Assembly (NCBI GenBank): GCA_013289795.1
Contig: JABCZH010000003.1
Span: 248,001 to 312,000, forward strand
Source of the DNA: Acidobacteriota bacterium
Lineage (GTDB): Bacteria > Acidobacteriota > Terriglobia > Terriglobales > Acidobacteriaceae
DNA length: 64,000 nucleotides
Direction: 5' to 3'
Shown here one piece after another: positions 13,648 to 19,308 of this stretch. The notes under the pieces were generated by a model, which was not told the DNA's origin, did no database searches, and saw nothing but the letters and a program-made list of their open reading frames with translations. Positions within the stretch are counted from its first letter, which is position 1. Each line of letters opens with the position of its first letter. The position numbers and the translations under genes were made by a program.

Positions 13648-14871
13648 TTATCCGACCCTTTTCATCCGTTCAATCTCTGGACTCGGAGTTACCGCTCTCC
13701 CGCAGCACGCCCCTTCCGGGATCGGCGCTCCATGCGGGCAAGTCCGCGGATGCCCCAGGAAAGCGCAAATCTTGTCCGTCGCTTGAGGTGACAGGATGTG
13801 CTCGAACTTGCAGGCCTGTTGCTCGATTTCCGTCTCGCTGTCCATCGCCAGGCTGTCGGTAAACAGCCGCTCAGCCAAGCGATGACGGCGAACAATGTCG
13901 GCCGCGCGTTGCCGGCCTCTCGGAGTGAACTCGACAATCATGCTGCCGTCACCGGTGGAAACGCCGTCCGGCTTGAGGGCGTCATGGCACGGGTTCACAA
14001 ACGGCTTGTGATGGTGCGCCAGCGGCGGGTGCGGCGAACTCCGCACCAACCCCAGTTCAATCATCTTCTCCACCGCGATGCTCACGGGCAGCGCTCCGTG
14101 TACTTCCATCAGTCCGATTTCCGCGATTTCACCCTGTTCACCAAGCGCCCACAGCTCTTCCAGAACTTCATCGAACTGTTCCTCGTCGGCCATGGAAAAC
14201 ACAACCTGCGCGCTGATCTTGCCGTGATGCAGTTCAATGCGGCGGTCGGCGAGGCGAGCCACCACAGGATCGTGCGTGACCATCACAATCGTTCGTTCCT
14301 GATTGTGCAGCTCGCGCAACAAACGCAACACGATCTCCTCATTCACCGCGTCCAGATTTCCCGTAGGCTCGTCCGCCAACACGATCTTGGGGTCGTTAAT
14401 CAACGCCCGCGCAATGCAAACCCGCTGCTGCTCGCCGCCCGAGAGCTGGGAAGGAAGATGCTGGGCCCGGTCCTTTAACCCAACGCGCTGCAACGCTTCC
14501 AGCGCTTCCTGTTCATCGGTCATACTGTGGAAGTATTGTGCCAGCATGACATTCTCGACCGCAGTCAGGTAGGGAATCAGGTGAAATTGCTGGAACACAA
14601 AGCCAATCTTCTCCGCCCGCACCCGGTTCAATTCTGCGGTTGAAAGATTGGCAACATTCTCGCCGTCGAGCCAAATCTCGCCTGAGCTGGGCCGGTCCAG
14701 ACAACCGATCAGGTTCACCAGTGTGGACTTGCCCGAACCCGACGGGCCCATGATGGCAATCCACTCCCCTGGTTCGACGCTCAGGGAGAAGTCGTCGAGC
14801 GCCCGAATGGTGCCGCCGCCCGCGCCGGCATTGGCAGGGTAGAGGCGGCTGACCTGGTTCAACTTGATCAA
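13648..14871 (-). CDS. ABC transporter ATPase fused to a complete DtxR-type metal-dependent repressor
   Basis: 407 residues from a TTG one base after the stop of the upstream permease. Residues 1-225 are a LolD/MacB-type ABC ATPase: Walker [10 protein letters not shown] (42-50), signature LSGGEQQR (143-150), Walker B VLADEP (164-169), H-loop His200. Residues 227-390 match DtxR/MntR: a winged-helix part ([37 protein letters not shown]) and a metal/dimerisation part with [13 protein letters not shown] (328-340), ACKFEH (353-358) and CPHGAPIP (378-385). Aligned to DtxR, Cys102-Glu105-His106 correspond to C354, E357, H358; His98 is replaced by Glu. An extra His/Pro-rich insertion lies at about 279-308. 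Inference: a transporter ATPase that also senses iron and may repress its own operon. Last gene of the iron operon. Confidence 0.9.
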
Positions 14872-14872
14872 T

Positions 14873-16021
14873 TCATTCTCCCCTCAAGATCGTAGCAGGT
14901 TGCACCAGCCGCAGCAGAGTCACCGGTAAAATCGACGCGACCAGCGCCACCGCAATGCTGCCTGCCAGCACCTCGGGCAACACAGCGAAGCGCGGGACCA
15001 CCGGGGCATGGAAGTTCACCCTGCCAATCCAGGCAGCGATCGCAACTCCAATCCCAAATCCAACGACTGCCCCCACCGCTCCCAGCACCGCAGCCTCGGT
15101 GACAAAGAACCCGCCAATCAACCGCTCTGAAGCGCCCAGGGCCTTCATGATGGCGAAGTCGCGGCGGCGATCAAACACCCATCCCATGAGCGTCGAAAGC
15201 ACGCACAACGCCGCTGTCAAGATGATCAACAACACACAGACCAGCAGCGTGCGGTGAGTCTTTCCCAACACCCGCGCTTCCCCTTCCATGATCTGACGAA
15301 CCGGGCGGATCTCGGCTTCGGGCAAAGCTTGCGCCAGCCTTTGGACGGTCGCGTCGACTTCCTCCGCTGATCCTGCCGCTGCGATCTCGACCGTCGAAGG
15401 CTTCACGCCAGTCCAATTTTCGAATTCGCTCAGCGAAAGATAAATCCGGCTGTCCTCGGAGGAGCCGGTACGTACAGTACCCACAGGGTTCAAGCGTACG
15501 GTCCGCCCGTGAAAGCTTAGATCGAATGCCTGTCCTTGCGGAGCCACCAACGCGGCGGCTCGCGTACCGACCAAAGCATCCTCTTCACGGATTGGCCACG
15601 CCGTGACCGACCACCATCTGTCTAGCTTACGCACTTGGTCCAGATCAGTCCCCGAGACCACTACCGGCTGCCCATCCACCGTTCGGGCCACCACGTACGC
15701 GAAGGGTACGGCTACACCATTCCCGCCCAACACAGAGTCGATCGTCTGCAACGCATGGCCAGGAAGCGATTGCCCATTCTTCGCCAGTACGATCACGTTC
15801 GCGCCGTAGTTGCGAAACTCGTTGTGCAGCTTGGCTTGTACATCCACGTAGAGATTCAGCATGGCGGTGGTCACAGCCGCCGCAACCATCATCGCCAGCA
15901 GAGCGGCTGCCGCGCGGCCGCGGCGCAGTACAGCCGCCCGAACTAGCATCCGCAGAAACATCGACCGGCGCGGTGCATGGGTCCGGCGACTCACTATAGC
16001 TGGCGTGACGCTTGAACTCAC
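14873..16021 (-). CDS. ABC transporter permease, FtsX/MacB type (second permease of iron operon)
   Basis: 382 residues. An N-terminal membrane helix (about 28-55, AALLAMMVAAAVTTAMLNLYV), a large periplasmic domain, and three C-terminal helices (about 255-375) form the FtsX-like topology. The segment VFDRRRDFAIMKALGASERLIGGFF is the FtsX coupling motif facing the ATPase. Overlaps the upstream permease by four bases and ends one base before the ATPase start, so the three genes form a tightly coupled unit. Known: similar FtsX-FtsX-ATPase triplets accompany FTR1/DUF2318 proteins in the Campylobacter p19 iron locus. Inference: half of a heterodimeric transporter acting with the iron permease. Confidence 0.88.
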   Translation of the reverse strand: MSSSVTPAIVSRRTHAPRRSMFLRMLVRAAVLRRGRAAAALLAMMVAAAVTTAMLNLYVDVQAKLHNEFRNYGANVIVLAKNGQSLPGHALQTIDSVLGGNGVAVPFAYVVARTVDGQPVVVSGTDLDQVRKLDRWWSVTAWPIREEDALVGTRAAALVAPQGQAFDLSFHGRTVRLNPVGTVRTGSSEDSRIYLSLSEFENWTGVKPSTVEIAAAGSAEEVDATVQRLAQALPEAEIRPVRQIMEGEARVLGKTHRTLLVCVLLIILTAALCVLSTLMGWVFDRRRDFAIMKALGASERLIGGFFVTEAAVLGAVGAVVGFGIGVAIAAWIGRVNFHAPVVPRFAVLPEVLAGSIAVALVASILPVTLLRLVQPATILRGE

Positions 16022-17274
16022 GCTTCACCTCGCAGCGCGTACACGGGATCGAACTGCACCGCGCGCCGGATCGCCAAGGCGCTGCCGGCAAAGCTCACCA
16101 GCACAGCAATCGCAATCACAATGGGAAATAGCACCACATCAACTGTGATTTGCGAATCGAAGATCGAGCGTCCGACCATGCGTGCCAGCATCGCTCCGCC
16201 CGCGAACCCGACGCTGCCCCCGAGCACAGCCAGCAACAGAGCTTCCGCAAAGAATATCGCCGCGATCGAGACGCTTCCCGCGCCCAAAGCCCGCATCAGT
16301 CCAACCTCGCCGCGTCGCTCAAACAGTGCTGTAGCCATGGCCGCCGAGACTGCCAGCGCCGCAGCCAGTAGAGCAGCCAGCGCAATCAGCAGCATCAGCC
16401 CTTTGATCCGCGCGAGTACGGTGCCTTCGTTTTGCGCCACCTGCCGAATCTGCTCGGCGTGCGAATGCGGAATCGACTCCTGCAACTGGTAAGCAATCGA
16501 CTGCACATAAGGTGAACAGTACCAGCGATCAAATTCCGGCCCGCGCAAACTTTTCGGATCGCGCCGCGCGAACGCGTCCTCCGGCTTGGTCACCGCGCTG
16601 ACGTATAGCCGCCGAACTGCCCCAGGCCGGCCGAGGATGCTTTGCGCCACCGCCAGGGGAGCCACAATCTGATCGTCTTCCACGCCACCGGTGGAAAGCA
16701 CGCCGACCACCCGATGCGCCTGACTTCCAATGTCGATTTCGTCTCCCGTTTTGCGCCCAAGCCCGGCGGCCAGCCTTTCGCCTAAGAGTACGTCCTGCGA
16801 ATCGTCCCCCGGCCAAGCGCCGCTTACTTTCCACCACGGATAGATGGCGCGCACGCCAGTCTGAAATTCTTCTCTGCCGAAGCTGAGGTCTTTGGAGAAA
16901 TACGTACCCAGCAGAGTGACGTTCGTTGCCCCACCAACGTTCACAACCACAGGCAGCACCGGCGCAAACCCCACGATGTTGTTATGCCAGTACATGCCAT
17001 GAATCTTGGGCAGGTCACCTTCGTCGAGATACGCCCCGTCGCTCGGTGCCTTTAGGTCAACGCCCGCAATTTGAAGGTCGAGCGTATCTTCCTGCGGAGT
17101 GACCACTAGGTTGGCGCCGAAAGTGCGGAGTTCGCGGTTGACCTTATCGCCAATGTCGGTCGCCACGGCGATCATCGCCGTCGCGACACCCACGCCCAGA
17201 ATGATGGCGGCTCCGGCCAACAGCTTGCGCCGCTTCTGCCGACGGAACGATTCGTAGACTAGGCGCAGGAACAC
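16018..17274 (-). CDS. ABC transporter permease, FtsX/MacB type (first permease of iron operon)
   Basis: 418 residues with the same FtsX topology: first helix at about 17-40 (LLAGAAIILGVGVATAMIAVA), a periplasmic domain of about 230 residues, and three helices at the C-terminus (about 295-410). The coupling loop reads LFERRGEVGLMRALGAGS. It is distinct in sequence from its neighbour, so the transporter is probably a heterodimer. Three bases separate it from the FTR1 gene upstream. The periplasmic domain contains MacPCD-like strands (VRRLYVSAVTKPEDAFARRD). Substrate inferred from the operon: iron or an electron/iron-handling partner of FTR1. Confidence 0.88.
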   Translation of the reverse strand: MFLRLVYESFRRQKRRKLLAGAAIILGVGVATAMIAVATDIGDKVNRELRTFGANLVVTPQEDTLDLQIAGVDLKAPSDGAYLDEGDLPKIHGMYWHNNIVGFAPVLPVVVNVGGATNVTLLGTYFSKDLSFGREEFQTGVRAIYPWWKVSGAWPGDDSQDVLLGERLAAGLGRKTGDEIDIGSQAHRVVGVLSTGGVEDDQIVAPLAVAQSILGRPGAVRRLYVSAVTKPEDAFARRDPKSLRGPEFDRWYCSPYVQSIAYQLQESIPHSHAEQIRQVAQNEGTVLARIKGLMLLIALAALLAAALAVSAAMATALFERRGEVGLMRALGAGSVSIAAIFFAEALLLAVLGGSVGFAGGAMLARMVGRSIFDSQITVDVVLFPIVIAIAVLVSFAGSALAIRRAVQFDPVYALRGEA

Positions 17275-17277
17275 GGA

Positions 17278-18525
17278 TTACGGTTGGAACATCCGGCTGT
17301 GGGCCGCGATGTCCGCCTCCCGGACGATGACCGAGTCCGCTGTAACTTGCGCCTGCAAAGGGATCGGATTGCAGCCGCCAGGCATGCCGATCGACTGCGG
17401 ATTAACCGGCGACGCGCAGTTCTTGCACACCACGCCGTTCTGCCGCTTGTAGAAGCCCATCGCGCCGCAGATTTCACAGGCATCTAGAACAGTGGCAATC
17501 TTCCCGTCCGGCTTCTGATACAGCCAGAAGCGAATCTCGCTACCGTTCTCCTTGGCCTGATAACGGTGAAGATCGCCGTCGTAGAGTTGCTGCAACGGAA
17601 TCGCAACCTGCCCGTTCACGAATGTGACTTCCGTAGCCGGCGAAAGCGCGCTGACGCTCTTGGCATAGATGAACTCCGCGGTCACCAGCATAATGAACAC
17701 GAACGAACTGGCGTACACCGACACCATCCATAGGCGCTCGCGCCGGGCGCTCCATTCGGCTTTGCGGCGAGCCGCGGCAGAATCAGCTACTGGCGCAGGT
17801 TCGCGCCGCTTCACCTCAAACAGCACCATCAACGCAGCCAGAGCCAGGATGGTGACAAAGAAGAAAAGATCGTTGCGCACTATCGGCCCGATGATCGCCA
17901 TCTCCTGTTTGGAAGAGGGAAGCACTCCGTTTTCGGAAAGCTCATGCAGTCCGGAGATGATCAGTTGCGCCGCCACGAAGAACAGAATTGCGGTGGTGAT
18001 GCGGAAAAACTTCTGCAGGTTGATGCGCACACTGCCCTTCACAAACATCACGCCGAACAGGACCGCTGCAATCACGCCCAGCAGCGTCCCCAAAAAACTC
18101 AGCAGCTCGGTCGAATTCAGAGAAACCGCCGACAGAATCAATACTGTTTCTGCGCCCTCCCGCAGCACCATCAGAAACACAAAAACAAAAAGCCCAAACC
18201 ATGCATTCTTGCCTGCCAGCAAACTCACCTTGCCTTCAATTTCGCCCTTGAGCTTGCGTCCTGTCTTCATCATGAAGACGATCATGGTGACCACAAAGAA
18301 CGCAGCCGCCAGCATGATCCAGCCTTCGAAAATGTCCTCGTTCCAATGGGTGCGAGCGAGCAGGACGGCCACGCCAATGCTGCCTAGAAAAGCCGAAACC
18401 AACGCGGCATAAACTGGCTTTCGCAGCTCCGGGCGGCCAATCTTGGCCAGGTAAGCCAGAGTAATTCCTACAATAAGTGCGGCTTCCACACCCTCACGCA
18501 GGGTGACAATGAACGCTTGCAACAT
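17278..18525 (-). CDS. FTR1-family iron permease fused to a DUF2318 Fe-S-like domain
   Basis: 415 residues. Seven or so membrane helices with both hallmark FTR1 motifs: REGVE (10-14) and REGAE (122-126). The C-terminal part (about 345-389) is a DUF2318 domain with CEICG, CKNC and PGGCNP, predicted to be a cysteine-rich iron or Fe-S site on the periplasmic side. Known: FTR1 proteins transport iron after oxidation; FTR1-DUF2318 fusions (FetM-like) work with the periplasmic P19/FetP protein and an FtsX-type ABC module in Campylobacter and E. coli. No P19 gene is found here. First gene of a four-gene operon (FTR1, FtsX, FtsX, ATPase-DtxR), with a promoter and a 21-bp dyad immediately upstream. 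Confidence 0.93.
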   Translation of the reverse strand: MLQAFIVTLREGVEAALIVGITLAYLAKIGRPELRKPVYAALVSAFLGSIGVAVLLARTHWNEDIFEGWIMLAAAFFVVTMIVFMMKTGRKLKGEIEGKVSLLAGKNAWFGLFVFVFLMVLREGAETVLILSAVSLNSTELLSFLGTLLGVIAAVLFGVMFVKGSVRINLQKFFRITTAILFFVAAQLIISGLHELSENGVLPSSKQEMAIIGPIVRNDLFFFVTILALAALMVLFEVKRREPAPVADSAAARRKAEWSARRERLWMVSVYASSFVFIMLVTAEFIYAKSVSALSPATEVTFVNGQVAIPLQQLYDGDLHRYQAKENGSEIRFWLYQKPDGKIATVLDACEICGAMGFYKRQNGVVCKNCASPVNPQSIGMPGGCNPIPLQAQVTADSVIVREADIAAHSRMFQP

Positions 18526-18548
18526 TCAGAAACGGGCCTCTACGATCT

Positions 18549-18569
18549 TGAAAATGAATTTCAATTTCA
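18549..18569 (-). promoter_or_regulatory. Candidate iron-responsive operator (21-bp dyad)
   Basis: An almost perfect 21-bp palindrome, arms TGAAAnTGAA and TTCAnTTTCA, with 9 of 10 base pairs matching across a single central base. It matches about 15 of 21 positions of the classical Fur 21-mer. It lies 23 bases before the FTR1 ATG and directly downstream of the predicted -10, so occupation would block initiation. It could be read by Fur or by the DtxR domain encoded in the same operon. Confidence 0.6.
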
Positions 18570-18577
18570 CTTTGTAT

Positions 18578-18621: not shown

Positions 18622-19308
18622 CTAAAGCCGCTTCAACATCGCCTTGGCTTCTTCCAACCGGGGGAACAGTCTTTCTTCATCCTGGAACTCTCCGGAATGC
18701 ACGCACCGCCGGCTCCCGCGCAACTTTACCGGATGCTTCAAGTGCAGCATCTCGTGATAGACGATGTATTCCACCGCATAGCGCGGCACTCGAAAGTCAT
18801 CAAACACACGGCTCACCACAATGGCGTTATGCGCGGGGTCGTAGTGGCCCAGGCGATTGCGTGCATGGACGCGGCTCCAGGTCATGCTCGGCCGCGCCAA
18901 CAAGCCATGAAAAAAGCGAAGATTCAACTCGTCGAAGATTGCTTCCAGGTCGTAAGCGCGGCCGTGCGCGCTGTCAATGCGTTTCCGGCCCCTGATCTGG
19001 CGTAGCAGGGTCGCCTTATTCCTGATGCCCCGGCTCGAGATGTAGCGCCGATACCGCGTCGCGTGTTCCCGTTCGATCGGCTGACGGTACATCTTGGCCA
19101 ACAAAATATGGGCGATCGCATGCAGGACAGTTGATGGCGCCCCCTCCAGCACATCCGAAAGGCGCACAAACAACTTGCCCTCGCGCATACGGATATTGTT
19201 GTTGATACTGGCAAAGGGGAAGAATTCAACCGCCAAGTCCGGCATCGGCGCCCGCGGCCGCAGCTCGCGGTAGCTCTCCTCGAAGACGCTAAGAAGCTTG
19301 GGATTCAC
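18622..19308 (-). CDS. SprT-like zinc metallopeptidase
   Basis: 228 residues, soluble. The C-terminal half resembles SprT/SprT-like proteins: DLEAIFDELNLRFFHGLL, SRVFDDFRVPRYAVEYIVYHEMLHLKHP with the zinc-binding HEMLH near 190, then RRCVHSGEFQDEERLFP where a third zinc ligand is expected. The N-terminus (about 1-100) is helical and contains APSTVLHAIAHILLAKMY, a second HAIAHI that resembles a degenerate HExxH. No signal peptide. Known relatives include DNA-protein crosslink proteases and uncharacterised YgjP-like proteins; the substrate here is unknown. Separate from the iron operon, whose promoter lies just beyond its 3' end. Confidence 0.8.
   Translation of the reverse strand: MNPKLLSVFEESYRELRPRAPMPDLAVEFFPFASINNNIRMREGKLFVRLSDVLEGAPSTVLHAIAHILLAKMYRQPIEREHATRYRRYISSRGIRNKATLLRQIRGRKRIDSAHGRAYDLEAIFDELNLRFFHGLLARPSMTWSRVHARNRLGHYDPAHNAIVVSRVFDDFRVPRYAVEYIVYHEMLHLKHPVKLRGSRRCVHSGEFQDEERLFPRLEEAKAMLKRL

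Follow-up and report, generated by a model that had tools for sequence, protein, structure and literature searches.

Among the described iron-uptake systems, the FetMP-fetABCDEF operon of Escherichia coli and the P19-FTR1 operon of Campylobacter jejuni (genes 1649-1656) come closest to the locus studied here, sharing with it the order FTR1, FtrD-like membrane protein of the Fe-S type, two FtsX-type permeases and ATPase. For C. jejuni, an FTR1-based operon with a like gene order is described in the part of PMC6083913 available to us. A copy on an E. coli plasmid encodes FTR1, an iron transporter, an Fe-S protein, two permeases, an ATPase and a TlpA-type protein. Movement of iron by the ABC part of operons of the FTR1/FtrD type is a putative function.

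In the acidobacterial operon described below, FTR1 and FtrD form one protein, a search of the genome found no p19 and no thioredoxin gene follows. In addition, the ATPase carries a DtxR domain: the E. coli ATPase is 60% identical, but it ends 12 residues past the aligned region, whereas 185 more residues follow here. The C2 domain of MetNI and the C-terminal domain of ModC are likewise placed C-terminally on an ATPase, could sense substrate and are expected at the dimer interface. Their fold, however, is different from that of DtxR, which the domain found here resembles, and transporters of the MacB/LolCDE sort, to which this one belongs, are not known to us to be controlled by transinhibition. 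Regulatory domains that sense the substrate are known from ABC ATPases; the fusion studied here is probably one of them, with a domain type and a transporter class that are new for this kind. Neither the open-licence papers listed, surveyed by titles and the first lines of abstracts, nor the part of PMC4531530 available to us describes an ATPase-DtxR fusion.

The fusion gene and its operon

All genes of the operon lie on the minus strand of the window, that is, the whole stretch of 64,000 nucleotides that was analysed. The order is an FTR1 iron permease joined in one protein with an FtrD-like domain (17278..18525; PF03239, 7.7e-39; PF10080, 7.1e-30), permease 1 (16018..17274) and permease 2 (14873..16021), both of the FtsX/MacB type according to Pfam, and, as the last gene, the ATPase-DtxR fusion (13648..14871), with overlaps or gaps of only a few bases. 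FTR1, FtrD, two FtsX permeases and an ATPase thus stand in one operon, as in iron uptake of the FetMP/P19 type. A gene of the Asp/Glu racemase family comes next after the fusion gene. At the other end, a gene for a SprT-like metallopeptidase (window positions 18622-19308, same strand) lies 96 bases ahead of FTR1.

The P19 periplasmic iron-binding protein (PF10634) had no match when the whole genome was searched. A search with PF02421 found no convincing FeoB in this genome, since the best match, above the Pfam cut-off, reached 64 bits compared with 167-186 bits for the FeoB of relatives (six proteins). That match is a frame of 566 residues with two such domains, which we take to be the GTPase Der. 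The genome has three genes of the Fur family and one ordinary DtxR.

The open reading frame occupies exactly 13648..14871 and encodes 407 amino acids, with a TTG start one base past the stop of permease 2 and no internal stop. Pfam recognises, in this single frame, ABC_tran at residues 25-170 (9.2e-38) and Fe_dep_repr_C (PF02742, the metal-binding and dimerisation domain) at residues 316-386 (1.9e-26). Residues 1-222 (14206..14871) form an ABC ATPase of the LolD/MacB type, with Walker A at 42-50, Q94, LSGGE at 143-147, ADEPTG at 166-171 and H200. Walker A, the Q-loop, LSGGE, Walker B and the switch histidine are invariant or nearly so among 55 aligned fusions. The assignment to the MacB/LolD type follows from the resemblance to MJ0796 and MacB (Z about 30) and from the partner permeases, with their FtsX and MacB_PCD domains in Pfam. 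The DtxR-type domain covers residues from about 228 to 392. It comprises a winged-helix-like region (residues 228-318; 13918..14190), recognised in predicted models and alignments, with E235 and E238 in its first helix, and a core for metal binding and dimerisation (residues 319-392; 13696..13917), with H330, E334, E350, C354, E357 and H358 besides C369, C378, C389 and C390. The frame, the Pfam matches and the motif alignment bear out the claim of an earlier note on this DNA that one frame holds the ABC ATPase motifs and a DtxR part, and the motifs it cited (HRLAER, ACKFEH, CPHGAPIP) are found in the translation.

A scan of 230 relatives kept 80 loci, all of them acidobacterial. In-frame fusions made up 77 of these, two more were cut by a contig end, and one (L149) had its ATPase and DtxR parts in two frames. 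FTR1, FtrD and both permeases stood upstream in 63 of the 77; in the other 14 the match lay no further than 5.2 kb from where the stretch begins. In a second set, made up of 396 Acidobacteriota genomes, a query with the DtxR domain gave matches in 228. Of the 38 places inspected, 20 held the fusion in frame together with the operon and the other 18 held stand-alone genes, among them the ordinary DtxR of the window's own genome. The 21 fused loci of this second set overlap the first in part, with the same organisms represented (L033 and L137, for example, are identical). The same fusion is thus intact in other genomes, and because it recurs, chance or misassembly can be excluded, as can a frameshift or assembly error at the join. 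These results support a genuine ATPase-DtxR fusion inside an iron-transport operon.

Among plasmids, at least 15 records covered 80% of the full query; one such match among the best 20 listed spans residues 2-326, with no annotated gene. With the C-terminus alone, the best 25 of 56 records were 24 annotated regulators and one unannotated match.

Fold, metal site and DNA-reading region of the DtxR-type domain

The AlphaFold2 model of residues 222-407 had a mean pLDDT of 88.3 and a pTM of 0.83, and its best Foldseek matches were IdeR and DtxR. It superposes on residues 1-139 of DtxR with a Z score of 18.0 (rmsd 1.9 Å over 135 residues). The DtxR fold suspected for the C-terminus was thus recovered by prediction. 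The earlier note had called it a full DtxR; the model predicts the first two DtxR domains, while the third, SH3/FeoA-like domain had no Pfam match. The winged helix can be recognised from the fold, but PF01325, the Pfam model of the DtxR DNA-binding domain, did not match the window's protein at E values up to 1. The low pTM of the full-length model (0.57) means that the placement of the DtxR domain against the ATPase is not fixed by it.

The domain resembles DtxR and IdeR in its winged helix followed by a metal-binding and dimerisation domain, and in several ligand positions. E105 and H106 of IdeR are kept in all 58 domains compared, E83 in the 21 fusions of this set, and H79 in 16 of them, with Gln in the other five. 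At the C102 position, all 38 fusions and feoB-linked relatives (21 and 17, respectively) have Cys, whereas the 20 ordinary DtxR have Glu. The fusions differ from DtxR and IdeR in being joined to an ATPase, in lacking the SH3-like domain, in an unconserved recognition helix, in four extra cysteines and in glutamates at three positions. The M10 position is Glu in 19/21 fusions and 17/17 feoB-linked proteins, but Asn or Asp in ordinary DtxR; the R13 position is Glu in 20/21 and 17/17, but Lys in 20/20 ordinary DtxR; and the H98 position is Glu in 19/21 and 17/17, but His in 20/20. In the part of PMC10317159 available to us, Met10 and Cys102 of IdeR are said to favour iron, while MntR has asparagine and glutamate ligands instead. 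By this rule (PMC10317159, same part), our ordinary control DtxR, with Asn or Asp at M10 and Glu at C102, look MntR-like and so are not surely iron regulators. The metal site of the fusions, judged by these aligned positions, appears to be mixed, with Cys102 kept and Met10 replaced by Glu.

C354, C369, C378, C389 and C390 each occur in 55/55 aligned fusions, and in 17, 17, 15, 17 and 17, respectively, of the 17 feoB-linked relatives. In the set of 38 fusions and feoB-linked proteins, C369, C389 and C390 are present throughout and C378 in 36; Cys is absent from these positions in all 20 ordinary DtxR. Within residues 319-390, 32 positions are invariant across 55 fusions, the most distant of which is 50% identical to the window's protein. 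The His- and Pro-rich insertion proposed earlier at about residues 279-308 (13948..14037) proved real and conserved: rich also in Cys, it lies in the wing and was aligned in 41/55 fusions. N293, C295, H296 and G309 are present in all 41 insertion-bearing fusions, and H281, H286 and H288 in 39, 38 and 39 of them, so that the alignment points to a further site that could provide metal ligands.

The DNA-reading part presents another picture. The winged helix as a whole still folds in the predicted model, but its second HTH helix was not predicted as helical in either model (residues 222-407 or full length). Mean pairwise identities of the HTH and the core were 0.39 and 0.68 in 21 fusions and 0.29 and 0.59 in 17 feoB-linked proteins, compared with 0.51 and 0.61 in 20 ordinary DtxR, a set from which the ordinary DtxR of the window's genome, lacking the anchor motif, was left out. 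PF01325 matched 18/55 members of the Cys-rich branch described below at E<=1, and weakly (best 6.4e-4), compared with 21/21 ordinary DtxR (best 1.7e-18). Two positions of the recognition helix are deleted in 21/21 fusions, their placement depending on the aligner. Net charge and pI of the HTH were dropped as marks of lost DNA binding, the corresponding DtxR and IdeR segments being acidic too. According to the part of PMC8464063 available to us, IdeR reads DNA by indirect readout and its Q43A variant binds normally; lost contact residues alone therefore do not rule out DNA binding. The drifted region nevertheless makes DNA binding by the fusion less likely, as evidence short of proof.

In a tree of 58 domains, built by a short search and with several long branches, the 20 ordinary DtxR split off (100*), and the 21 fusions formed one side of a branch (support 79), grouped with 17 stand-alone proteins. 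On these alignments, the C-terminus of the fusion is placed in a Cys-rich DtxR branch, apart from the ordinary DtxR/MntR compared. PF02742 was found in 55/55 members of this branch (A3) and a FeoA domain in 17/55, the number of its stand-alone proteins. With FeoB queries, feoB was found upstream on the same strand in 16/17 stand-alone Cys-rich loci, but in none of the fetched stretches of 20 fused loci. These DtxR-FeoA proteins share with the fusion the branch, the Cys-rich metal site and the drifted HTH, the last seen in the stand-alone proteins among loci L039-L070 and in L154. They differ from it in being separate proteins with a FeoA domain, acting, if at all, beside FeoB. A stand-alone Cys-rich relative also occurs on a Pelobacter plasmid, annotated as a metal-dependent transcriptional regulator. 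Such annotation of feoB-adjacent DtxR-FeoA proteins as transcriptional regulators may be wrong, to judge from the drifted HTH. A study of FeoAB fusions in JBC set DtxR-containing FeoA-like proteins aside by hand, according to the part of PMC8980893 available to us.

Probable loss of the domain in one clade, and the palindrome at the promoter

The FtrD marker was found in 74/396 genomes. Besides 22 fused cases (the window, 20 loci and L191), these comprised 32 with an ATPase without the domain, one with a degenerate tail (L196), 18 with no ATPase in the stretch (18/52 stretches) and G241, a weak match that was left out. An ATPase and an iron repressor had been said to be normally separate proteins. 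This holds for the homologous ATPase of E. coli, which has no such domain, but the fusion is common in Acidobacteriota, with 22 of the 55 FtrD-bearing genomes in which the ATPase is visible (L196 counted as not fused). In L196, the DtxR-like tail of the ATPase has kept CPHG and lost the C/E/H triad, and the domain seems to be decaying.

Most of the operons without the domain belong to an unfused clade of 21, which consists of a single genus from the family of the window together with one neighbour. Their ATPases are still 65-70% identical and stop 8-19 residues past the aligned region. The other FtrD stretches without the domain are L190, L192 and nine distant ones (ATPases 41-48% identical). 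In a tree of FTR1, both permeases and the ATPase (56 rows), the unfused clade was nested among fused operons, and three changes of state suffice. The simplest reading of this tree is probably an old fusion followed by loss in one clade, a reading rather than a proof given the short tree search and several long branches. The 21 unfused operons keep the same transporter, as expected for a regulatory add-on.

Ahead of the operon, seven bases behind a promoter TTGACG-N18-TATCCT, lies a near-perfect palindrome of 23 bases, GTGAAATTGAAATTCATTTTCAA (18548..18570, minus strand), one mismatch from TTGAAAWTGAAWTTCAWTTTCAA. It is conserved and TTGAAATTGAAATTCATTTTCAA-like, and is a probable operator. Two or fewer mismatches to TTGAAAWTGAAWTTCAWTTTCAA were found in 55/65 upstream regions of fused Terriglobales (5 to 10 in the other ten), and the N18 spacing and TATCCT were the same in 45/56 palindrome-bearing regions, the split locus L149 included. 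The palindrome resembles a Fur box, agreeing with the E. coli consensus in 14/19 positions, against about 10.6 in shuffles. Among the 14 other fused upstream regions, the palindrome was found with two mismatches in one and with three in another. Outside Terriglobales, a fur-type gene stands directly ahead of FTR1 on the same strand in 11/15 fused loci (L041, L042, L045, L049, L050, L052, L056-L059 and L191).

In the genus without the domain, the palindrome was absent (at least 8 mismatches) from 21/21 upstream regions, one of which, L183, has no ATPase in its stretch. These regions carry TTGACGACCAATTTAGTC instead, with two or fewer mismatches (L180-L185, L187, L198, L199 and L220-L231); we take this sequence (GACTAAATTGGTC on the other strand) to be Rrf2/IscR-like. 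The unfused neighbour L186 has both the palindrome, with two mismatches, and a TTGACGACCAATTTAGTC-like sequence. In L197, with no ATPase in its stretch, the palindrome occurs with two mismatches.

The window's genome holds one close copy of the palindrome and a second place with three mismatches. A relaxed pattern of 16 bases gave 90 matches in this genome against 12 for a reversed control; among the 30 of these 90 that were inspected, those lying between genes comprised the site of the operon itself and two further, weak ones. In 26 chosen genomes, the palindrome was present in ten and absent from 16, including four fused ones (G074, G019, G169 and G177). It also stands at other places in four of the ten (G073, G084, G257 and G377): in G084 (L280) before a gene for an OprB-type porin, and in G073 (L273) between the genes of a protein without Pfam match and a TOBE-containing ABC ATPase.

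The earlier note had left two mechanisms side by side, regulation of the own operon by DNA binding and gating of ATP hydrolysis by metal. Self-regulation is disfavoured by the palindrome kept in the unfused L186 and by the fur-type gene ahead of many distant fused operons. In favour of autorepression stand the joint absence of domain and palindrome from one genus and the single close copy in the genome. To judge from the promoter regions, the transcription of the operon is probably handled by another regulator, of the Fur type, acting in trans.

A candidate iron gauge on the transporter

Gating by metal is the better supported of the two mechanisms, as the metal-site positions are conserved, two positions of helix 1 have become Glu and the DNA-reading helices have lost conservation. 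We consider it rather probable that the fusion is an ABC ATPase of the FTR1/FtrD type into which a cytosolic iron sensor, descended from a DtxR repressor, has been built, and that this sensor restrains the ATPase at high iron. Computation gave the fusion and its conservation, the predicted fold, the conserved positions of the metal site, the drifted DNA-reading part and the link of this branch to two unrelated iron importers; iron as the ligand, the stoichiometry, a dimer formed within the transporter and an output that inhibits instead of activating are inferred.

ABC ATPases work as pairs, and the core of DtxR serves dimerisation. Two ATPases paired in the transporter would bring two DtxR domains side by side, able to dimerise. 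Cytosolic Fe2+ filling the Glu/His/Cys site could then change the shape of this dimer, which would restrain ATP hydrolysis or the movement of the nucleotide-binding domains and shut the importer at the protein level; at low iron, the brake would be released. Permeases of the MacB/LolCDE type transmit force to the periplasm and, the permeases here being of this type, the sensor may instead gate their action on FTR1/FtrD. By analogy with MetNI and ModABC, in which C-terminal ATPase domains bind substrate at the dimer interface, block the ATPases and can keep them apart (PMC10710835, in the part available to us), iron-driven transinhibition would be the simplest mechanism.

Some observations speak against such a sensor: the winged helix still folds, H79 is Gln in 5/21 fusions, one genus lacks both the palindrome and the domain, and the window's genome has one close copy of the palindrome. 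The same predicted fold and single copy, with a palindrome just behind the -10 box in 55/65 fused Terriglobales regions and in 0/21 of the genus without the domain, would suit a membrane-bound autorepressor whose iron-loaded winged helix grips the promoter palindrome and stops transcription. We regard this as distinctly unlikely, given that the DNA-reading region is unconserved, with one helix not predicted, that L186 keeps the palindrome without the fusion and a fur-type gene lies ahead in 11/15 of the fused loci from outside Terriglobales, that four fused genomes of the 26 are without the palindrome and four genomes have it elsewhere too, and that three Fur-family genes and an ordinary DtxR are at hand in the genome.

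The five cysteines, present in 55/55 fusions and nearly all feoB-linked relatives and in 0/20 ordinary DtxR, could alternatively hold an Fe-S cluster or act as a redox switch, making the domain a gauge of Fe-S status or oxygen instead of free Fe2+. A precedent is FeoC, a small partner of FeoB holding an Fe-S cluster damaged by O2 (PMC10710835, same part), but in IdeR the C/E/H triad forms the primary site for a mononuclear metal, and we find this option unlikely. The conserved His/Cys-rich insertion in the wing, with its possible metal ligands, would fit a chaperone that takes Fe2+ leaving the permease and stores it or hands it over, with no regulation; its absence from 14/55 aligned fusions makes this role very unlikely, and DtxR domains are, to our knowledge, sensors in characterised cases. 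Hardly any credence is due to a decaying fusion without function: the domain is missing in one clade, probably by loss, and degenerate in L196, but the 32 invariant positions in residues 319-390 of 55 fusions contradict decay.

If the DtxR-type domain is indeed an iron sensor of the transporter, its kinship allows a broader and more tentative proposal, to which we give a little less than an even chance: the Cys-rich DtxR branch would have given up its role in transcription to serve as a portable iron gauge on importers, in the form of DtxR-FeoA proteins next to FeoB and of a domain joined to the ATPase in FTR1/FtrD systems. One common metal site, made up of two helix-1 Glu, H, E, C-x2-E-H and four more Cys, would then provide direct iron feedback at the protein level on uptake systems of two unrelated kinds. 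Also called into question is whether the metal-dependent transcriptional regulators annotated automatically next to feoB are repressors that bind DNA. Little is understood of the fast post-translational stop of iron uptake in bacteria, in comparison with transcriptional control by Fur and DtxR. A sensor fused to the ATPase makes this question testable with one purified protein, and the sister clade, which has the same transporter without the sensor, is a natural control. The fusion would give the few C-terminal regulatory domains known on ABC ATPases a companion with the DtxR fold.
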